64,000 nt of DNA, taken from positions 5,368,077 through 5,432,076 of the forward strand of contig CM046845.1 of the NCBI GenBank assembly GCA_025618425.1, given 5' to 3'. Within the stretch, counting starts at the first letter, position 1, and each line of letters starts with the position of its first letter. Source of the DNA: Heliocidaris tuberculata. Lineage: Eukaryota > Echinodermata > Echinoidea > Camarodonta > Echinometridae. Of this stretch, positions 1 through 38,470 are shown piece after piece. The position numbers and the translations under genes were made by a program. A model generated the notes under the pieces. It had not been told where the DNA came from. It saw only the letters and a program-made list of their open reading frames with translations, and ran no database searches.

Positions 1-965
1 AACTGACATTCCCGATAATAACTGACATTCCCAGTTATCCCGAAATAGACATGAGAAAACGCCGACATCCACTTGTCGACTATGTCCGGCGAACCTGTGA
101 AACAATGGAGATGTATTCTTTGGGTGGCCGGGCACAGTCGACGGATGGTATCACGCGCCAACTTGTGCACTGAACGGGGAATTGGTTCTTCACCCTGTCT
201 AGGGCCAGCGGAACCCCGCAGGTGGAGGACAAGGACCCTCCCAGTGGACAGTGCCAAAATCCGCTTAAAAAGTGTCATTTGGGCCATCCACTGAGAGTCA
301 TCCGTGGAATAATCTAACCCCACCTCTGAGATTCCGATGATCCTAGGATCTGCAAGGAGTGATTGCAGGATATTAAAATGGCGCTCTGGCAAATCGAAAG
401 CATGCTTGGGATGTATCCCCACTGCCACCCCATACCCAGCAGGCAAACTGTCAAACACTCTATCAAGGTAACCGGAGGCCGAATATCGTGACGTACTATC
501 CCTCAAATATTTTTCAACCCTATCTGGGTGAAAATGACTATCAAAAGCTGGGGGCAGTGGTTCATCATCATCATCATTATCCCGTGGGGGAGAGATTTCC
601 TGTGAGGACATTGTTTTCTGCGGGGGAGACACTGCGGCAAGTCCACAATAGGATGCGATCATCGCCGCGGTAATCCCCCGGCCCCGTCCAACAGAGGCCA
701 CCGCCACATAGGATGGCCTAGCAAGGCCGCGACCCCGGCCGACCCCATGGGCAGCTACCTCTGCGAAAGAGGGCTTATTAGGCAGCCCGGCAAACGGGCC
801 TGATCCGGCCAAAAGGCGCTCCCTTTTGCTCTTTTTGGCCCGCTTCTCGCGCTGTCTTCTTTTCTCATTGCGTCTCTTCCTCGCCGCTGCCTCTACTATA
901 GTGAGCTTACCTTCAGCGGCTATGTCAGTCATCTGGGTAACCCCAGGTGGAAGTGGTTGTTCCAT
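1..965 (-). CDS. TatD-family metal-dependent nuclease ORF of the retroelement, C-terminus beyond the window
   Basis: Reading leftward from the ATG at 963-965, 321 codons run to the window edge without a stop. Residues 29-50 are a Lys/Arg-rich block, a likely nuclear localisation signal, followed by two GRGRG clusters and an acidic run at 130-135. The TatD hydrolase domain starts near residue 140. FDSHFHPD supplies the metal-binding HxH (H144, H146), VGIHPKHA is the usual second loop, SEVGLDY supplies E214, VLHLRG supplies H248 and HLHCFTGS supplies H287. The last expected ligand, the Asp of the ETD-like motif, would lie off the left edge. TatD proteins are Mg-dependent DNases/exonucleases of the amidohydrolase fold; activity of this copy is inferred. 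The start has a strong context (A at -3, G at +4). It lies 89 bases downstream of the integrase stop and just after a 3' splice site, so it is probably made from a spliced mRNA. Confidence 0.85.
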   Translation of the reverse strand, partial: MEQPLPPGVTQMTDIAAEGKLTIVEAAARKRRNEKRRQREKRAKKSKRERLLAGSGPFAGLPNKPSFAEVAAHGVGRGRGLARPSYVAVASVGRGRGITAAMIASYCGLAAVSPPQKTMSSQEISPPRDNDDDDEPLPPAFDSHFHPDRVEKYLRDSTSRYSASGYLDRVFDSLPAGYGVAVGIHPKHAFDLPERHFNILQSLLADPRIIGISEVGLDYSTDDSQWMAQMTLFKRILALSTGRVLVLHLRGSAGPRQGEEPIPRSVHKLARDTIRRLCPATQRIHLHCFTGSPDIVDKWMSAFSHVYFGITGNVSYYRECQ

Positions 966-968
966 GAT

Positions 969-992
969 CTAAAAAGAAAACACACAAGAATA
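969..992 (-). promoter_or_regulatory. 3' splice site immediately upstream of the TatD ATG
   Basis: On the minus strand an uninterrupted pyrimidine-rich tract (TGTGTTTTCTTTTT) ends in AG three bases before the TatD start codon. It is the best acceptor-like sequence in the gap between integrase and TatD. It suggests TatD is translated from a spliced subgenomic RNA, as env is in retroviruses. The matching donor is not proven; the consensus donor at 8925-8932 is a candidate. Confidence 0.55.
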
Positions 993-1054
993 TCTATTAA
1001 TAAATAATTTTGAAGAGTTTTTCTCGTGACGAAGAAATGGTAACAAGACCTAAT

Positions 1055-3361
1055 TTACTTTCTTTTGCTACAGAGAGGACAAATCCACCTTACACTTTCT
1101 AACCCCTCTGACTCTGTTATGCCTACACATAAACCATGATACCAGTTATCACACTGGTCGCACTGGATCATTAGAGAGCCGTCATCAGGTTTCCGGCAGA
1201 GGCAATAAACCTTGCCAGGAGTACCTGCGACAACCTCACTTTGATCTGTGCATTTCTTTATTCGGTCATGGTTCAATGTGAAAATAGCCTTTCTGTAGGC
1301 TACTCGATACAGATACGGAGACAGTTTCTCCACGATGACTCCGGGCCCTTTCCAAGGGGGGCTCAGTTTCCGTGATCTCCCCTTGATCCGGGCCGTGTCC
1401 AGAATATAAACACGGTCATCCACTTCATATTCCCGAGTGTATTGCCTGACATCGTAATCTCGTTTCATCCGGCGCTGAGAAGATTTAAGTGCTGCTCGGG
1501 CCGATATATGAGCATTGCGCATAGCACAAGTCAAGTCCGCCACATATTCATCAACGGTCCTGTCCTGTACTGACAAAGGAACAGAGAATACGAGGTCAGC
1601 TGGAAGATTCACCTCCCGACCCAGCATAAGCTTGTTAGGGGTAAATCCAGTACTTCGATTCACTGTGGCACGGATAGCCCCAGCAATCTGTTGCAAGTGC
1701 TTATCCCAGTCTTTCTGAGATTTTGCCACATAACATCGCACTGCATCCATCAGGGTCCTATTCAGTCGTTCACATTGGCCGTTGGCAGAAGGCCTGTAAG
1801 CCGATGTCTTGGACTTATGGATCTGAAGGATGCGGCACATGTTCTTGAATAGATTGCTCTCAAAATTCCTACCTTGATCTGTGAATACCTGAAAGGGATA
1901 CCCAAATCGGCAGAAAAACTCGCTCACTGCAGCATGAGCTGTTGTTTCCGCCGTTTGGGAAGGCAGGGGTACACACTCTATCCACTTGGTGAATTGATCC
2001 ACCATAACTAATATATGCTTATTGCCTTGCTGGGTCTTCGGTAATGGACCCATGAAATCAAGATGCACACGCTCCATGGGTACCCCAGCATGGTAATTCT
2101 TCATGGGATGCCTCCCATAGCGCGTGGCTTTCTTGTTTTGATTGCAAGTAGCGCATCTAGCTATATAATTTCGGATATCCTCAGACATGCCAAACCAATA
2201 GTACTTAGTCTTTAGCTTAGACCGAGTACGACTAACTCCAGCATGCCCTGCTGAAGGTGGATCATGATTCAGACGGATTATGTCATGCCTCAGCGATTTG
2301 GGAACCACTAAGACATCACAATCATCCCTCTTCCTCCAGATCACTCCTTCTCTCAGGAAAAAGAGTTCCCTGTTTATCCACAGAAACTTACCTTCTGGTG
2401 AGAGAAGAAACAGGGTACCTTCATCTATCTTTTCCTTGTCTAATAACCACTTACGTAAGGGCTCGAATAGTTGGTCCTTTTCCTGCTCCTTTTGCATTAA
2501 TGTAGGAGAAAGTAAGTCCTCATCTGCCCCTACTGAGTTATCGACAAATGTATTTCTTACCTCAATCTCCATGTGGGTCACGGGGAAACATTCTTCGACG
2601 GCCACGCTTGATACCTGCGGGCCATGTCCTAGTGGCACCACATCATCCACCGAGTCGATGAAACGTGCCCATTCTTTGTGCCTCTTAGTGCAATACGAAC
2701 ATCCGCCGCAAGGCAAGTCATGTAGTTCCACGCCGAATCGATAACTTTCACACACCGGTCCAGTTTCCGGAATACGAGAAAGAGAATCGGCATTCGAGTG
2801 GTGTCTGCCCGGCCGATGTTCGATCTGCATATCATACTGCCCTAACTCCTCAAGCCAGCGGGCCAGTTGGCCTTGCGGCTCTTTGAAGTTTAGCAGCCAC
2901 ATCAAACTGCCATGATCCGTTCTCACAGTAAATGGCCTACCAAGGAGGTAATGCCTATACTGCCTGGTAAACAACACAACTGCTAAAAGTTCACGGCGAG
3001 TGACACAATAGTTTTTCTGCTGCGGAGAAAGAGATAAACTACCATAGGCAATAACCTTCTCCTCGCCATTTTGTACCTGTAGCAGCTCTGCACCGACTGC
3101 ATTACTTGATGCATCGGTATCCAGAATGAACGGATCTGATGAATTTGGAAGTGCAAGCACAGGGGCGGAAGTTAACAGAGCCTTAATCTGCTCGAATGCA
3201 GACTGATGAACATATGTCCAGCAAAATGCATTCTTACCGGTAAGCTCATACAACGGTCCAGCCACATGTGCATAGTCTTTCATAAATACTCGGTGGTAGT
3301 TGGCAAGCCCAAGGAACTGTTCTACTTCCCTAGTGCAAGTAGGCGTAGGCCAGTCAATCAT
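1055..3361 (-). CDS. pol: Pol fragment: RNase H, integrase and C-terminal PHD finger
   Basis: The 768-residue frame begins in the RT connection region (WPTPTCTREVEQFLGLANYH, about residues 4-23). RNase H follows, with candidate catalytic D83, E124, D149 and D192. A CGGCSYC cluster sits at 218-224. The integrase zinc-binding H366/H373/C403/C406 comes next, then the catalytic core D435, D495 and E531 with exactly 35 residues between the last two. A GPY/F-like module (WKGPGVIVEKLSPYLYRV) covers about 670-687. The last 50 residues form a C4HC3 PHD finger: C720-x-C722, C734-x2-C737, H742-x2-C745, C761-x2-C764, with Trp759 before the final pair. Intact elements have some 300-400 more RT residues upstream. 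The first Met is simply the first ATG in the open frame; in an intact element this would be internal to Pol. Confidence 0.93.
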   Translation of the reverse strand: MIDWPTPTCTREVEQFLGLANYHRVFMKDYAHVAGPLYELTGKNAFCWTYVHQSAFEQIKALLTSAPVLALPNSSDPFILDTDASSNAVGAELLQVQNGEEKVIAYGSLSLSPQQKNYCVTRRELLAVVLFTRQYRHYLLGRPFTVRTDHGSLMWLLNFKEPQGQLARWLEELGQYDMQIEHRPGRHHSNADSLSRIPETGPVCESYRFGVELHDLPCGGCSYCTKRHKEWARFIDSVDDVVPLGHGPQVSSVAVEECFPVTHMEIEVRNTFVDNSVGADEDLLSPTLMQKEQEKDQLFEPLRKWLLDKEKIDEGTLFLLSPEGKFLWINRELFFLREGVIWRKRDDCDVLVVPKSLRHDIIRLNHDPPSAGHAGVSRTRSKLKTKYYWFGMSEDIRNYIARCATCNQNKKATRYGRHPMKNYHAGVPMERVHLDFMGPLPKTQQGNKHILVMVDQFTKWIECVPLPSQTAETTAHAAVSEFFCRFGYPFQVFTDQGRNFESNLFKNMCRILQIHKSKTSAYRPSANGQCERLNRTLMDAVRCYVAKSQKDWDKHLQQIAGAIRATVNRSTGFTPNKLMLGREVNLPADLVFSVPLSVQDRTVDEYVADLTCAMRNAHISARAALKSSQRRMKRDYDVRQYTREYEVDDRVYILDTARIKGRSRKLSPPWKGPGVIVEKLSPYLYRVAYRKAIFTLNHDRIKKCTDQSEVVAGTPGKVYCLCRKPDDGSLMIQCDQCDNWYHGLCVGITESEGLESVRWICPLCSKRK

Positions 3362-3378
3362 ACCTCGAGTCAGAGGTA
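3340..3378. other. junction where the reverse-transcriptase core is missing
   Basis: The protease frame stops at 3354-3356 and the RNase H frame begins its recognisable homology at about 3352, overlapping by a few bases. No sequence for RT motifs such as YxDD lies between them. The plus strand at 3361-3378 is a small inverted repeat (TACCTC, six-base loop, GAGGTA), which may mark the deletion junction. Protease to RNase H now needs a +1 frame change, probably a consequence of the deletion rather than a designed frameshift. Confidence 0.75.
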
Positions 3379-4496
3379 TCAGCCGTGCTAACAGTTCTCA
3401 CTGTAGCATCTTCTGAAAACTCTGTGTTACATTCTAATACTGAGACTTCACGTGCTTCTCCAATGATTTCACCTCTCTTAAGTTTACAGCTTGTGGAAGA
3501 GGGATTAATCATGTAAACGTCCGCCTCCTCATTTGCATCATGAAGACTACGGGGAACAAGCACAGACACTGGCAGAAAAAGCGACGGCTCCACCAAGAAT
3601 GGCCCGGAGTTTAAGGAGCAAGTGCACCTCACCCTCCGTACCGAACAAGGGGGAACAACCACTTCATTCTCCACACTCACCTGCGCCACATTCTCCGAAT
3701 CTTCACAGTGAATGATGGGCAATTGCTCACCATTAAGAGTCAAAATAGACTCTGGTATGTTTATCTTAGCTCTGTACTTTCGTAGCAGGTCAGCGCCAAA
3801 TAACATCTCATCAGCTATGGGAGCTACATATATATCTTCACTAAGTGTTTGAGTACCTAGTTTCAGATTTATCGGTCCCACGACTATGCTATCCATTATC
3901 ATATCTCGTCCAGCCCCTTTAAGTCTAACTTGCTTAAGGATAGGCGGTCGAGGTTGGATACGGCCAAATAGTTTATCGGATATAATCGTGACAGCGGCTG
4001 CTGTATCCAAAACCGCAGTAGTTGATTCAGAGCCGGCTGTCAGCTTGATATTTAATGTGGAAGTAGATACTATTCTACATACTATCACTTCCACTTTCAT
4101 ATTCATCCCTAACTCACCCTTTACATCTGGTGGCCAGGGTGGATTCTTCCAAGGGACTTCACAATTGGTGACAGTTGTGATTCCTGGCTTACCGGTATTT
4201 GCCTGTGTATCTGGTGGCCAGGGTGAGTCCTGGAAGGGTACCATCTTGGGAACCAAACGTGCTGCTGGAGCCTCAGAAACTTCAGAAATTCTCTGAGATT
4301 CCACACTGCCTGCCTGATTCCCATTGCCTACGGGCGCATTTACATTATCGGAGATAATGGAGCTGGAGCTGGAGCTGGGGATCCCTGATCGGATCGGGGA
4401 CCCCCCATCTCCTCCGATCCTTTTCCGTTTCCCCCCTCCTGAAAGGACACTGCTCTTACCTGCCCGCCAACTGAAGGTATCCCTCGTTGGGGGCAA
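3354..4496 (-). CDS. pro: retropepsin (protease) frame, reached by -1 frameshift from Gag
   Basis: This 380-codon frame lies in the -1 frame relative to Gag and overlaps its 3' end by 157 bases. The catalytic motif LDTAAAVTIIS has the active-site Asp at residue 164 and takes the DTA form of retroviral-type aspartic proteases. A later LFGADLLRKY (about 232-241) matches the conserved C-terminal ILG/LLG-D-LL motif. An N-terminal linker carries two PWPPD repeats (92-96 and 120-124). As a dimer it would cleave Gag and Gag-Pol. The ORF ATG at 4494-4496 is probably not used. Ribosomes would enter after the slippery site at 4427-4433, so about the first 23 codons are likely untranslated in this frame. 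The C-terminal 100 residues are the linker that normally leads into RT. Confidence 0.85.
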   Translation of the reverse strand: MPPTRDTFSWRAGKSSVLSGGGKRKRIGGDGGSPIRSGIPSSSSSSIISDNVNAPVGNGNQAGSVESQRISEVSEAPAARLVPKMVPFQDSPWPPDTQANTGKPGITTVTNCEVPWKNPPWPPDVKGELGMNMKVEVIVCRIVSTSTLNIKLTAGSESTTAVLDTAAAVTIISDKLFGRIQPRPPILKQVRLKGAGRDMIMDSIVVGPINLKLGTQTLSEDIYVAPIADEMLFGADLLRKYRAKINIPESILTLNGEQLPIIHCEDSENVAQVSVENEVVVPPCSVRRVRCTCSLNSGPFLVEPSLFLPVSVLVPRSLHDANEEADVYMINPSSTSCKLKRGEIIGEAREVSVLECNTEFSEDATVRTVSTADTSDSRYD

Positions 4497-6772
4497 ACTC
4501 TGCTAAAATGGCCTTGCTCCCCACAATTGAAACATCCAGAAAAACCCACCTTGGCAGGTGAGCGGTCAATTGTGGGTGGAGTCCGGCCAGTTATACGATG
4601 AGGAGTGCCAGGGGTGCGGCCAGATGTAAATCTAGGCCGGTCACCAGTCCCAGGCCTTGATCCTGAACGATCTGGTGTGGCCGGCATCCTGGATGATCTG
4701 CTGGTATTACACCGATTCACCAAATCGAGGGTATTCTTGGACAGATCCATGATGGCCTTCACCATGGAATCCATCTTGGATGCCCAGGATGCACTCTGTG
4801 ATTCAAGTGCGGCAACTCTAGCTTCAATGCTAGACTTGCCGGCAGCTATCTGTGGGGCGGTAACCTTTTGGATTTTAATGTCAGTTTCCGTCTCATCCAC
4901 CGACAGCTGTCTCACATCCTTCCTAGATCTTGTGTTATGCAAATGCATAGACTTTTGTGTGAACTGATACCACTTATATTGTTGTAGCGCCAGATCTAGT
5001 GTACTGGGCCTAGAAGTCAGGACATGGTGTCCTGCTTCTTTGTCTGATGCCCCTTGGCAGAATCGAGTCACTACTAGTTCCTGGACATAACTGTCCTGGA
5101 GCCCAATAAATGCTTGTCCCGCCAATGTCAAGACACGATCGGCCCATTTGAGGATGTCTTCGTCCACGCGTCGATGAGCAGACTGGAACTGCATCCTCAT
5201 CACTTCTGGCTCGTCATGGAGAGCAAACCGCTTTTGTAATTTCTGAACAAGTTCAGAGTAAGTCATCTGTTGGTTGCTCTCCCTGACAAGCGTCATGTAT
5301 TTGCCGGCTTCTCCTTCAAGAGCCAGGCACAAGTGATAAGTCTTGTCGTCCTCAGTCATGTTATGACGGTCGACAAACAATTGAAACTTGGCGTAGAATT
5401 CCGCCCAGCCGCTCTTGCCGTCATAAGATAGTGTTTTTGGCAGCAAGACAGGCTTAGCTAGGGGCATTCTATCAAAAGTTCCATGTCTCTCCGAGAAAAT
5501 TGGAGGAACAAGTGTATCTGGAGTTAGCCGAGATACATGAGGTGGTTGGGGATACATGGGTTGGTTGGAACTAACCAGCGGGGCTTTAGTAACTTGAGGG
5601 GGGTTCCCACACATCAAGTCACCTTGCCCTTGGGGTGGGGGCAAGTGATCTACGGGTGACTGATACCCATGCATCTGGCCGCCTTGTCCTTGCAGAGAAA
5701 GTTGAGGGGCTTGATGCATACGGGGTTGGCTTACTGGTGATGCGTACCCATACATCATTCCACCTCGTCCTTGTGGAGAAGGTTGAGGGACCTGATGCAT
5801 ATAGGGTTGATACCCGCACGTTTGTTGTGGCAATGGATTGGGTGTTTGTGTGCCAGCTCCTGGTGGATAAAATCCACCAAAGCCAGGAGCAAAATGTCCA
5901 TATGGAGGAGGGAATTGTCCAACCCCTCCAAAGGGCATTCCACTCATCATTTGCCACATCATTCTACACATATCAGCATAATTTGGGGGACCTGTCACAT
6001 TTGGGGGAACTGTCATACTTGGTTGTGCAATATTAGGGACAGATTGTGGGGAAGGACATGTATGTACAGCCGATTGTGGGTATGTCAAAGTTGTATCAAT
6101 GCGTGATTGAACATAGTGGGGTTGCGTTTGAGAGACCAAGTTGGGCTGTGCCCGCGGGGAATGCAGTGGAGATACTAGTTTCGGGGGTGGGGGTGCATCC
6201 CTAGGGGCACTAGAGATGTCATACCCTGGTAACACCCCATTACTCCACTTAGCAAATCCCAATTGCTCCCTTCTACTATCCCCTATTGGGAAATAGGTAT
6301 CCGAACCCCAAGAAGATTTCGCTTTAATTTGCGAGGGGTCCGAGGCCTGTGGGGGCATATTCCCCACCTGCCTGGTCCCATCTGAACTCCTTTGAATCTC
6401 CCCTGCAACGGCCTGTAATGGTTCGCCGACAGCGCCAAACAAATTAAAATCAGCTTGGCTAATCTGTGGTGTAACCATGGCCGGCTGCGAAGTGGGAGGT
6501 TGAGCGAGTTTACTTGTATTTAGTTCTTCAGCGGTAGAGCGCGAGTCCCCATCTTCAAGCGACCTACCATTTGTGGGTTCATAGTCAAAGGCATAAACCA
6601 ACAACTCAGCCCCCTTAATGTTAGGAATCGACATGAAGATATCGGGAGTGATATCAACGGCCTCTCTTGCTTCGATGATACGATCGGCCGTCACTTTACC
6701 AATGCCTGGAAGCTTCGTTAGCTCCTCGTGAGTACAAGAATTAATTTTAATTCTCGTCAACCCTGAAGCCAT
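4340..6772 (-). CDS. gag: Gag polyprotein with N-terminal helix-hairpin-helix domain and CCHC zinc knuckle
   Basis: This 810-residue protein is long for a Ty3/gypsy Gag. Residues 7-62 resemble a ComEA-like helix-hairpin-helix: IKINSCTHEELTKLPGIG, then a second helix with RIIEAREAV. This fold normally binds DNA backbone. Residues 170-440 are Pro/Gln/Gly-rich and include three copies of a ~25-residue repeat (MHQ-PQ-S-QG-GG-M-GY) at about 325-390. Residues 440-610 form the conserved capsid-type Gag region (SYDGKSGWAEFYAKF, YHLCLALEGEAG). Residues 645-690 look helical, possibly a coiled coil. A single CCHC knuckle follows (C747, C750, H755, C760). The frame ends just beyond the frameshift site. 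The start ATG at 6770-6772 lies 35 bases downstream of a 3' splice site and has G at +4. It acts in particle assembly and RNA packaging. Confidence 0.92.
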   Translation of the reverse strand: MASGLTRIKINSCTHEELTKLPGIGKVTADRIIEAREAVDITPDIFMSIPNIKGAELLVYAFDYEPTNGRSLEDGDSRSTAEELNTSKLAQPPTSQPAMVTPQISQADFNLFGAVGEPLQAVAGEIQRSSDGTRQVGNMPPQASDPSQIKAKSSWGSDTYFPIGDSRREQLGFAKWSNGVLPGYDISSAPRDAPPPPKLVSPLHSPRAQPNLVSQTQPHYVQSRIDTTLTYPQSAVHTCPSPQSVPNIAQPSMTVPPNVTGPPNYADMCRMMWQMMSGMPFGGVGQFPPPYGHFAPGFGGFYPPGAGTQTPNPLPQQTCGYQPYMHQVPQPSPQGRGGMMYGYASPVSQPRMHQAPQLSLQGQGGQMHGYQSPVDHLPPPQGQGDLMCGNPPQVTKAPLVSSNQPMYPQPPHVSRLTPDTLVPPIFSERHGTFDRMPLAKPVLLPKTLSYDGKSGWAEFYAKFQLFVDRHNMTEDDKTYHLCLALEGEAGKYMTLVRESNQQMTYSELVQKLQKRFALHDEPEVMRMQFQSAHRRVDEDILKWADRVLTLAGQAFIGLQDSYVQELVVTRFCQGASDKEAGHHVLTSRPSTLDLALQQYKWYQFTQKSMHLHNTRSRKDVRQLSVDETETDIKIQKVTAPQIAAGKSSIEARVAALESQSASWASKMDSMVKAIMDLSKNTLDLVNRCNTSRSSRMPATPDRSGSRPGTGDRPRFTSGRTPGTPHRITGRTPPTIDRSPAKVGFSGCFNCGEQGHFSRVCPQRGIPSVGGQVRAVSFQEGGNGKGSEEMGGPRSDQGSPAPAPAPLSPIM
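4391..4433 (-). promoter_or_regulatory. -1 programmed ribosomal frameshift site: G GGA AAC plus stem-loop
   Basis: On the minus strand the heptamer G-GGA-AAC occupies 4433-4427, and the Gag zero frame reads GGA AAC across it, exactly the X XXY YYZ register. After a six-base spacer, GGATCGG (4420-4414) can pair perfectly with CCGATCC (4397-4391), leaving a 16-base loop with a G6 run. That run could also pair with CCCC at 4380-4377 to make an H-type pseudoknot. A -1 slip here leads directly into the protease frame. G GGA AAC is a known frameshift heptamer of several retroviruses; its use here is inferred from position and register. Confidence 0.85.
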
Positions 6773-6807
6773 GTTGGGCGTGAAATGGGAAATATCAATA
6801 TCAAAAA

Positions 6808-6836
6808 CTAAAACAGCACAATAATTTTAATTGAAA
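6808..6836 (-). promoter_or_regulatory. 3' splice site upstream of gag
   Basis: On the minus strand a T-rich tract ending in GTGCTGTTTTAG stands 35 bases upstream of the gag ATG. Together with the AG|GTAAGT donor at 8925-8932 it would remove a long AT-rich, CAG-repeat-bearing leader of about 2.1 kb. The functional pairing is an inference. Confidence 0.45.
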
Positions 6837-8924
6837 GAGAAATAAATATGCTTCGGTGCCCTTCCGACAAAAATCAAAATAATTTCTATCTATTTTTGGA
6901 ATCCGCCCTTGACTCCAAAAAATGAAACAGAAAATGAATTGATCTACTCCAATTCTTATATATATATATATATTTTGTTTGAAATATGACAGCTTGTCTG
7001 TCACTAAAACAACAATAAATCTAGCCAATAAATATATATATATATATATCTGACTCAAAGACTTATTTGTAGTCAGTAAAAATAAACGAAATGCTACTAA
7101 TATTTTATTAGCAGTTCAAATCTAAACTACATTAATAATAGTCTATATCAATATATCAGCAGCAGCAGCAATATCTAACATTAAATTCAGCAGCTGCAAC
7201 CAGAAGACACCATATACAACAACAACAGCACAGCAATAGCAGCAGCAGCAGCAATTTACAATATCCGCAACCATAAAGTACAAGCTACAGTAATAATATC
7301 GTAACATCAACGGCAGCAGCAGCAAAAATTATCTCTAAACATTTCAAAATTCAGCAGCAGCAGCAGCAGTCCTCGGCAAAAATAACACTCAAAACAATCT
7401 TACCACATTCTCTCTCTTTTCTTTCTTTTTTTTTTTTTTTATTTATTTATTTCCTCCAGAGAGAGAGAGAATTACTCGTTCACAGAAACAACAATGCTCA
7501 AAAAATACAACCATATACACCACAGACCACGCACCCACAGCAAAAAATATTCAACAAATCACGACCAAAAACCACTCTCCGACAATCAACCAAATAAATC
7601 AACCAAATAAATCAACGCTATAAAGAGTACCTACTCTACTTCAAAGTCACCGCACGAAAATATGTAAATGAACAGACGATGCCAGTGCTTGCCGGACGTA
7701 AGTCGGCAAAAAACACGGCACAATCCAAAAAATATTCAAAGATTTTCCTCCAAAAACACTGCTGAAATTATCAAAATAAATTCTTTACATTCGAAAAATA
7801 ATTGCTAACCCCTTTTTGCAATCAAATCACATAAATTCAATCCGAAACAATAAATAAAATACTCTACAAAACGATCATACCGAAATCTCAAAATGGCGTC
7901 GCCGATTTGGGCGTGGTTTATTTTCCGGCGCTAATTCAAACACGCACACACTCGACGAAATACAACTCACACAACCCACACAATATCACTCAAAAACCAG
8001 TTTTCCTCGTCGCCATTTATAGTATTCGCACGCATATAAACAAACACATCACTTCACCAACACGTCACAGCATATACAATATTCATTAACCTGTATCAGT
8101 TATCACAATAATGCACAACAGAGCAGCAAGGACCAAGAAATACGCATGCAGAGAAGATCAAGAGTGTACAGATACACGGAGACGTTGCATGTACGATGTC
8201 TCAAACTGGAATGCAAGCTAGCTCTGAAATATGTTGTACGGATCGGTGTGTGCAATGAAGTGTGTCACTTGTGTGCGCGTGCAGTGATGTGTGTGCCTCG
8301 GCGATCAGCAGACAAATAATTCATAATACATTTATACTACAACATTGACAGTCTGACACATGCTTGGGCCTATGGCTAAGTATGAGTGATTGACGCATAT
8401 AATAATACTCCCAGACAAAATGATAGTTCAGCAACAAAATGGCTATTTCATCATCGAACTTTTCCATCTAAGATCACCCCTGACTGCAGGAGAGGCTGCA
8501 AAATCATGAAAATTGAAATACTGGCTTACTGCTAAGTAAGTCATGTAAGTGCTCATGGTGCTAGATCTAGACTATGCTAGGCCAAACATCCAAACAACTG
8601 TTTTTGAACCGACAATGAAATTAAATGACCGTTTTTTAGACCACAAGTAAATTGTATCTAAACTCAAATATTATCTCCTTTTAATTCCTTTTAATTTTCG
8701 CTCTTTCCATGAATTAAGGAAAACATTGGACCTCCCCAAGTTTCATATCGTCCACGCAGCCCGAACGCGACCTTCGGCCATTTGCCTGCCGTTGCACAGT
8801 GCAGTCACACAGCAAATTGTCAATATTTATTTAATGAAAAAATATCAACTCAAATATTCATAGCTTACTATTCCACAAATCATTTTTAAACATTAAATGC
8901 CGGGTCATAATATTTCATCGTCCA
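6837..8924 (-). other. AT-rich untranslated leader or intron of the retroelement; no gene seen
   Basis: No ORF of note and no repeated partner in the window. It holds TA microsatellites (6956-6974, 7031-7049), CAG/CAA clusters, a T15 run near 7426-7440, and A-rich sequence rich in CACA and AAATC. No convincing LTR or tRNA primer-binding site was found. Confidence 0.5.
7155..7372. repeat. interrupted CAG/CAA trinucleotide clusters
   Basis: Four or five short (CAG)3-6 and (CAA)n runs are spaced over about 220 bases. They read as CTG/TTG on the retroelement sense strand and lie in its leader. Confidence 0.8.
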
Positions 8925-37189: not shown

Positions 37190-38470
37190 GATATTGAATT
37201 GCATTGAATTGAATGATTTTATTCACCAACAATAACATCATGTGTACATGATTTGTCATACAGTAATATTGTTACAAGATAGAAACATATGATAATAGCT
37301 GGTAAATGGGACCAGAAAATAGCACAAGTGCTAGTCGAGCCTGGCCCCTCTACAAAGTTTACATAGTAGATGATATTAATGCCATTACAAACATAACAAT
37401 CATGACAATTACAACAACTTACATAGATAGCATGGTGTTACATGTACATGTACATGCACATGTACATATAGAACAAAACATAATACTTATTGACTTAAAA
37501 GATGTTCTTTTAACGATTTCCTTAAACTGCTTCTGGATGATTTTAATTCAATATCGGTTGGTATTTTATTCCATAAATCACTTCCTAAGAAAGAAAGAGC
37601 AAATTGTCCTTAGGTAGTCCTTAATTTTGGTGAATGTACCTGTCGACATGTTTTTTGTCTCGTTGAATAATTGTGCTGTATCGTATCACAATAATCTATT
37701 AAAGAGTGGGGTAAGTTATTATTACTCAAGTCATACATGAAGATTCCTACACATTAATATTGCATATCAAACACACTGAGGATCTTTAAATCTCGAAATA
37801 ATGGGCTCGCCAGTGGCTAAATGTGATGGCACGTATTGCCATTTTTTGACTGCTAAATAAACAATTTCAGCTCCTTTTGTATGTACTTCCCCATACCTCG
37901 ATTCCATAGGTTAGATGTGGGTCTATGAATGCTTTATACAATAAGACCAATGTATATTAGGGTACAACATGTCGTAGGCGGAATAAAATTCCAACTCTTT
38001 TCCGTATACATGAATTATCAGCTCGAATGTGATTGTGCCAAGTTAAATGTTTATTAATCGTTATCCCTACAAAAGTTGCTTCATCAACATCTCCACATTT
38101 TTCTAGTCTACCAGATAATGTGATTTTCCTCCTCCTGCTGCTAATTAACATAAATTTTGTCTTCAAAGAGTTGATGGTAAGCTTATTTGCAATGCACCAT
38201 TCTTGTATTTTCTTTACATTGCTATGTATTTCATTGCCATCAATTTCCTTTCGATTTGCTGGAAATGTGTGAAACAAGTTAGAATCGTCTGCAAATAGTC
38301 TGAAATTGAAAAAGTTAGAAACGGACGGTAAGTCATTGATATAAAGTAAAAATAGTGTTGGTCCTAAAACTGATCCCTGTGGAACACCGTGTCTGATTTT
38401 CATTTTGCTATAGACTATTTATCCACATTGAACATATTGGTACCTGCGTTCTAGATAAACTGAGCAGTTC
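37190..38470 (-). pseudogene. LINE (non-LTR) reverse-transcriptase C-terminal part and 3' UTR
   Basis: The minus strand from 38,403 reads HGVPQGSVLGPTLFLLYIND and FRLFADDSN, RT motifs B and C with the FADD active site, typical of the Jockey/CR1/L2 group. A stop interrupts the stretch just upstream, and frames shift after 37,957 before a recognisable W-N-K-I-P tail. The 3' end near 37,190 is an (AATTC)n-type tail. 5' truncated and inactive. Confidence 0.9.

Follow-up and report, generated by a model that had tools for sequence, protein, structure and literature searches.

A 64,000-nucleotide stretch of the sea urchin Heliocidaris tuberculata genome (assembly GCA_025618425.1, contig CM046845.1, positions 5,368,077–5,432,076), here called the window, carries a retroelement at its left end. 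Minus strand 1–8345 is one damaged copy of a young Ty3/Gypsy-type long terminal repeat (LTR) retrotransposon lineage. The lineage encodes a Gag with a helix-hairpin-helix (HhH) and a CCHC knuckle, a Pol with the layout protease, reverse transcriptase (RT), RNase H, integrase and PHD finger, and a third open reading frame (ORF3) for a predicted class II TatD nuclease.

Structure of the window copy

Gene order on the minus strand is Gag, Pol and ORF3, with the TatD frame after the Pol stop, as read from stop-to-stop frames and Pfam matches. Features are listed by window position.

8342–8345, adjoining the 5′ LTR: target site duplication (TSD) ATGT, read by eye
8018–8341, minus: 5′ LTR (TGTAGT...CTATA), from the BLAST match of 8017–8345 to C14:5366692-5367019 (99.1%), ends set by eye against a second copy
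4343–6772, minus: Gag reading frame (open frame 4340–6826; CCHC PF00098, 1.2e-5)
6659–6754, minus: HhH at the Gag N-terminus (PF12836, 1e-6)
4487–4537, minus: CCHC zinc knuckle (PF00098, 1.2e-5)
3759–4061, minus: retropepsin-like protease, Pol frame at −1 relative to Gag (PF00077, 0.0011, below the Pfam curated cut-off)
3354–3397, minus: junction of the RT-region gap, about 0.83 kb missing in this copy (BLAST against loci L014 and L011; no RVT_1 match)
2834–3220, minus: RNase H (PF17917, 1.6e-31; PF17919, 5.4e-31)
2129–2305, minus: integrase H2C2 zinc domain (PF17921, 1.5e-20)
1790–2080, minus: integrase catalytic core, DD35E (PF00665, 2.5e-14; catalytic residues aligned in 12 sequences)
1070–1204, minus: complete PHD finger at the integrase C-terminus (PF00628, 5.1e-11)
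969–992, minus: splice-acceptor-like pyrimidine tract with a terminal TAG, 3 nt upstream of the ORF3 ATG
3–965, minus: ORF3, TatD nuclease, ATG at 965, damaged and leaving the window (PF01026, 6.8e-20)

The 3′ LTR lies about 1.06–1.38 kb left of the window and was found by BLAST as a 329-bp repeat of window 8017–8345 at C14:5366692-5367019. The original prediction, made from the sequence of the window, had given the element an extent of 1–6772; it is larger, running from the 5′ LTR to the 3′ LTR outside the window. The co-linear minus-strand series that was predicted (HhH-bearing Gag, RNase H, DD35E integrase, complete PHD finger and TatD) is recovered in full by Pfam. The predicted retropepsin is matched as well, but weakly.

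The RT-region gap lies at window position ~3364, relative to L014 and L011, and Pfam found no RVT_1 match left in the frames of this copy. ORF3 lacks 72 bp at 493/494 in BLAST comparison with two relatives, and its remainder lies in a different frame at C14:5367853-5368089, with the frame change at the window edge. Uninterrupted natural frames occur in other copies of the genome. The −1 offset of Pol relative to Gag was derived by hand and is identical in the four families described below. Integrase residues D15, D75 and E111 (numbering of protein P0158) are invariant across the 12 aligned sequences. A WKGPG...SPYLYRV stretch in the integrase, read by eye, is at most a candidate GPY/F module.

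Genomic copies and families

A pair of LTRs encloses ORF3 in six of seven copies examined, which represent four families (A, the window family, and B, C and D). LTRs are 99.1% identical in the window copy, 100% in the A copy on C18 and the B copy on C17, 99.5% in the B copy on C7 and the C copy on C2, and 99.6% in the D copy on C2. All six LTR-paired copies have 4-bp TSDs, read by eye (ATGT, GTGA, ACAC, GTAC, TCAT and GTGG). The seventh is L014 (family A), for which an LTR pair was not found within the stretches fetched and whose Gag frame lacks the HhH. LTR-start to LTR-start distances are 10.2–11.8 kb in the five LTR-paired copies besides the window copy. The distance K between paired LTRs is 0–0.009, and the insertions are therefore young. 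A PF01026 profile search of the 897-Mb genome gave 67 matches, and TatD frames form dispersed groups of equal length: ten of 468–469 aa (nine of 469 and one of 468), six of 418 aa and two of 876 aa.

The fetched copies of the four families are mutually divergent, and each encodes Gag, Pol (−1 frame) and ORF3 on one strand. When one copy per family was compared with Pfam, RVT_1, RNase H, H2C2, rve and PHD were found in this order in all four; the D copy is interrupted by a single in-frame stop, located after RNase H and before the integrase. The protease is detected by Pfam in B, C and D and weakly in A. Pfam found no chromodomain in protein P0002 or in the copy compared from each of the four families. 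Families A, B and D have the HhH, with B and D matching A at 8.9e-15 and 2.8e-6. Pfam gave no HhH in family C over a shorter stretch than that used for profile comparison; there, a profile of the A, B and D HhH regions and one database HhH matched at 1.1e-9, yet the G-x-G hairpin is absent. By its sequence, the family C region is a diverged form of the HhH. Presence of the HhH is established only for the copies retrieved from families A, B and D and for database protein P0072, in which an HhH Gag is joined to a Pol with PHD.

The element was expected to be multi-copy and LTR-bounded, and the LTR pairs and TSDs bear this out. The expectation of one module order throughout holds for PHD and TatD in all four families and for HhH in three, the module having diverged in C.

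Two irregular loci were recorded. C20:27680973-27690842 has a pair of Pol frames spaced by about 6.6 kb and then a duplicated piece of ORF3, an arrangement of two family A copies that are in tandem or rearranged. C1:57004881-57006821 is a 1645-aa open frame in which the TatD profile matches in three separated pieces.

Linkage of TatD to the PHD-integrase clade

The genome was searched with an integrase-PHD query, and the best 116 of 1259 candidates were scored, as rows that are matches and not copies. A TatD frame lies ≤6 kb downstream on the same strand in 38 of the 47 scored rows at ≥54% identity, the PHD clade, at spacings of 90–4830 bp. None of the 69 scored Gypsy rows at 34–45% identity has one, and their matches stop at query residue 298 or earlier, short of the PHD. 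The 54% cut was chosen after inspection of the table, in which no scored row falls between 45% and 54%. By hand count, the 47 rows represent about 43 copies, 35 with TatD and 8 without.

For 33 of the 74 TatD pieces, no scored integrase lies upstream; such pieces could be fragments, host genes or elements outside the scored set. The 74 pieces comprise 67 profile rows and 7 of the 73 rows from a second search, whose other rows overlap or adjoin. One further TatD row, C12:34963015, has no integrase row nearby. PHD-bearing Pol copies at C11:6964841, C11:7870428, C13:2700429 and C11:8305453 have no TatD within 6 kb and could represent a pre-capture state or loss.

Occurrence in other organisms

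The integrase-PHD query matched 592 proteins, and PF00628 was counted by eye in 113 of the best 120 listed, in a search whose query contains the PHD itself and so favors PF00628-bearing matches. Named sources among the matches listed include Lytechinus, Ostrea, Pinctada, Gigantopelta, Haliotis, Nucella and Acanthaster, and the named proteins nearest to the window element are from Lytechinus sea urchins. P0126, a partial gene model from the starfish Acanthaster, is a single protein with integrase, PHD, a C2H2-like finger and TatD. P0163 joins PHD and TatD.

Searching with the ORF3 portion of P0126 yielded 64 proteins, including sequences from S. purpuratus, Lytechinus, Ptychodera, Lingula and bivalves of seven genera; within this set, linkage to Pol was seen directly in P0126 only. 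Four of the 64 match a Pol protein in source and exact contig size (11370, 16046, 9881 and 9450), with the last pairing ambiguous, since Pol proteins P0066 and P0123 both have 9450. In 20,000 jittered control trials, at most two such coincidences arose against the four observed; this comparison covered 119 of 120 Pol and 62 of 64 ORF3-type proteins, with two proteins without a size and P0126 left out. The four coincidences are strong but indirect evidence, and together with the starfish gene model they suggest that the same linkage exists elsewhere. Contigs of other genomes gave one distant locus (L058, 32% identity), and no matching locus was found in the viral contigs searched.

Several database entries resemble parts of these elements. 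P0096 (JGI contig, 6471 bp) contains a Tpt1/KptA RNA 2′-phosphotransferase (residues 1065–1234; PF01885, 4.2e-43) between the integrase and the PHD of a PHD-clade Pol, making it a second RNA-processing enzyme in the clade. Proteins named "TatD family hydrolase" or "DDE-type integrase" in Sedimenticola or Thiodiazotropha metagenome-assembled genomes (MAGs) look like contamination by host retroelements. In the giant squid Hox region, a "TATDN2" gene lies beside ZMYM1, POGK and similar frames (PMC6962438). It may be a mobile-element ORF3 rather than the host TATDN2.

ORF3

Eighteen aligned ORF3-type proteins (echinoderm, mollusc and other) share 19 invariant columns, which include D143, H145, H147, E239, H273, H310, H312 and D367 (P0034 numbering). 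This ligand pattern (DxHxH, E, H, HxH, D) places ORF3, at the level of sequence, in class II of the TatD proteins, a class defined by HxH (PMC10085689). Simple TatD motif patterns are present in 87, 89, 79 and 79 of 91 listed database proteins. In the four ORF3 proteins compared, from A–D, Pfam detects PF01026 and no other family, and in particular no DEDDy exonuclease. "TATDN2-like" names on related proteins are database labels.

An AlphaFold2 model built from 18 sequences has a mean predicted local distance difference test score (pLDDT) of 79.9, with most of the TatD core above 90. In family A, the model has a basic helix at residues 24–54, followed by a low-confidence linker. The best PDB match is Staphylococcus aureus TatD (6l25, 3.9e-17), which is also matched by sequence (7.2e-21); other matches are further TatD proteins, human TATDN3 (1.4e-14) and TATDN1 (6.1e-13). 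N-terminal regions differ widely among families, with the basic helix in A versus a C2H2-like finger and an "NSPA" helical domain. The finger and the P-x-NSPA helical domain start the ORF3 of C and D, of the starfish model and of mollusc-type proteins. In P0016, this region (residues 10–158) has a mostly confident fold with no Pfam match. A Foldseek comparison of the P0016 model with viral models gave one match at E ≤ 0.001, to an uncharacterized Yasminevirus protein (6.7e-11).

Ratios of nonsynonymous to synonymous substitution (dN/dS, Nei-Gojobori) were estimated for eleven ORF3 pairs, two of which were saturated and gave no ratio; one stop-holding codon was dropped in the B60 pairs. The ratios are 0.15 for B/B59, 0.12 for B/B60 and 0.17 for B59/B65, at dS 0.49–0.61, and all three pairs span one split, between B and a B-like subfamily. 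The TatD frame is therefore under purifying selection across this split, as had been foreseen.

In family A a pyrimidine-rich tract lies 3 nt before the start codon of ORF3, and in family B 5 nt before it; these tracts end in TAG or CAG. The chance expectation for tracts this good is 0.0037 and 0.0063 per slot. By analogy with retroviral env, ORF3 is likely to be expressed from a spliced message.

PHD finger

The solved chains nearest to the integrase PHD are fly PPS (4.6e-15) and BPTF (6.9e-15), followed by DIDO1, CXXC1, TAF3, PHF2, PHF8 and SPP1. The PHDs of PPS, DIDO1, CXXC1, TAF3, PHF2/8 and SPP1 are presumably readers of histone H3 trimethylated at lysine 4 (H3K4me3). The PHD pattern is present in 110 of the 120 listed proteins, with the cage Met and Trp in all 110 and Y or F preceding the first PHD Cys in 107. 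Seven of the ten proteins that lack the pattern also lack a PHD label. The integrase PHD, as judged from these alignments, keeps the C4HC3 ligands and the aromatic/Met/Trp cage of H3K4me3 readers.

The PHDs of ING2 and NURF/BPTF are described as H3K4me3 readers, and fusion of the ING2 PHD to the integrase-binding domain of LEDGF shifted HIV integration to transcription start sites (PMC8149907). Given the resemblance of the PHDs and this result, H3K4me3-guided insertion would be the likely mode of targeting.

Proposed roles and alternatives

The preferred reading, given a probability of about 0.55, is that this lineage took on the PHD at the integrase C-terminus and the ORF3 TatD as heritable parts with targeting and processing roles. 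The PHD would likely dock the intasome on H3K4me3 nucleosomes and lead to insertion at active promoters. ORF3, translated from spliced RNA in an env-like manner, would likely be a separate and probably nuclear protein. More tentatively, ORF3 might act on the replication intermediates of the element itself, as a 3′ exonuclease, an apurinic/apyrimidinic (AP) endonuclease or a nuclease of RNA:DNA hybrids, and might trim or clear damaged 3′ ends and RNA-DNA ahead of integration or during it. The Gag HhH would give the particle a nucleic-acid-binding surface. PHD targeting and TatD processing of cDNA or host DNA are plausible because the relevant residues are conserved. TatD proteins act as 3′ exonucleases and AP endonucleases (PMC10085689), and human TATDN2 reportedly cuts RNA, as a 3′ exo/endonuclease, and resolves R-loops (PMC12709183, citing its reference 36).

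Several observations weigh against this reading. TatD is lacking inside 6 kb in 9 of the 47 scored PHD-clade rows. Relatives without HhH, PHD or TatD, which in the original prediction would have marked these modules as chance neighbors, thus exist only in part. The 4.5 kb downstream of two such rows contain no same-strand frame above 104 aa, and ORF3 is therefore dispensable for at least some members. Integrase and TatD trees of nine elements have 3 of 6 splits in common, a number attained in 106 of 20,000 label shuffles. Most nodes at which the trees conflict have weak support, and in four of the nine elements the integrase and TatD were paired by contig-size coincidence. Six shallow ORF3 pairs are under looser constraint (dN/dS 0.22–0.46), and selection on TatD tells that there is a function and not which one, with the strong values coming from one split. 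Evidence for splicing covers families A and B, in which the acceptor-like tract was scored. A GTRAGT donor scan of the A and B leaders gave one A site and two B sites that are not comparable, and none could be pinned.

The main rival, itself rather unlikely, is that ORF3 is an offensive or protective factor against the host or rival elements and not an enzyme for the element's own cDNA. Its task might be to clear R-loops, RNAs of the host or extrachromosomal DNA that competes with the element, or to repair host damage after integration. ORF3 is separate from Gag-Pol, with its own start and the acceptor-like tract in A and B, a basic N-terminal helix is modeled in family A, and some PHD-clade copies manage without ORF3, all of which would suit such a factor. 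So would the increase in R-loops in medaka germ cells upon loss of Tatdn2 (PMC12709183). Linkage of TatD to one pol clade fits this reading and the preferred one alike.

It is improbable that ORF3 is kept mainly for binding, as a nucleic-acid chaperone or for nuclear import, with the TatD fold as a scaffold and catalysis incidental. The wide variation of its N-terminal regions by family fits this idea, but all catalytic ligands are invariant in the 18 aligned proteins, which argues against a pure scaffold, since that would not need them. Chance neighborhood, in which a Gypsy copy was inserted beside a host TatD gene or transduced one once, is ruled out for practical purposes: some of the 33 TatD pieces without a scored integrase upstream are perhaps host genes, but the association is more than chance because TatD frames of equal length are dispersed, LTRs and TSDs enclose ORF3 in four families and the linkage is clade-specific and seems to recur in other sources.

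The preferred reading can be extended, speculatively and with the odds well against it, to a widespread animal lineage that combines a promoter-targeting PHD integrase with its own nuclease for RNA:DNA hybrids or 3′ ends and trades RNA/DNA-processing enzymes. If so, the traded enzymes would be TatD, carried by about 35 of the 43 scored copies, and Tpt1/KptA, in P0096. Many mollusc and echinoderm "TATDN2-like" genes would then be element ORF3s, and host TATDN2 may have exchanged with them.

Elsewhere in the window, a fragment at 37960–38418 on the minus strand resembles, by eye, a reverse transcriptase of the long interspersed element (LINE) type.

Comparison with known systems

A PHD-integrase together with its own TatD nuclease between LTRs seems to be an undescribed combination. 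No TatD-bearing retroelement was found among the matches listed in the open-access PMC literature, a search that does not cover Repbase. The sole open-access paper listed with TatD, retrotransposon and gypsy is on a wheat genome, and a paper about retrocopies (PMC5408686) contains a single TatD hit. TatD and PHD gave no term hits in PMC6338049, PMC8220671, PMC12440569 and PMC2774666.

The closest precedent is provided by the Juno and Vesta LTR retrotransposons of bdelloids, in which ORF3 encodes a DEDDy 3′–5′ exonuclease or a GDSL esterase (Rodriguez et al. 2017, PMC5408684). Like the present elements, they are LTR elements with an extra enzyme gene after pol, in some cases for a nuclease. Their DEDDy enzyme is an RNase D-like exonuclease, whereas the present elements have a TatD metallonuclease, a PHD integrase and an HhH Gag. 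Juno and Vesta are also described as having no significant departure from neutrality within the genome, in contrast to the dN/dS of 0.12–0.17 found here across one subfamily split.

CR1-like LINEs with an esterase and a PHD were reportedly described by Kapitonov and Jurka in 2003. They share with the present elements the presence of a PHD in a retroelement, but are non-LTR elements, and their PHD reportedly lies in ORF1 and not on an integrase. Chromoviruses (PMC2774666) likewise have a chromatin reader at the integrase C-terminus; theirs is a chromodomain, whereas the present integrase carries a PHD resembling H3K4me3 readers. Ginger1 (PMC2836005) has a Gypsy-like integrase with C-terminal extras, including a PHD aligned beside Ulp1. 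Ginger1 elements are cut-and-paste DNA transposons with terminal inverted repeats, and TatD does not occur in that text. The cellular class II proteins TATDN2 and TATDN3 (PMC10085689, PMC12709183) share the HxH site and the TatD fold with ORF3, but are products of host genes, whereas ORF3 is element-borne and has its own N-terminal regions.

TatD would be a new enzyme class for LTR retrotransposons. Genes annotated as "TATDN2", YabD-like or "TatD family hydrolase" in marine invertebrates and symbiont MAGs may be genes of mobile elements. The combination of PHD and TatD could help to explain target choice and copy processing in such elements. The ING2-LEDGF case was engineered (PMC8149907), whereas the integrases described here are natural PHD fusions with a conserved Met/Trp cage, which makes histone-guided integration directly testable.

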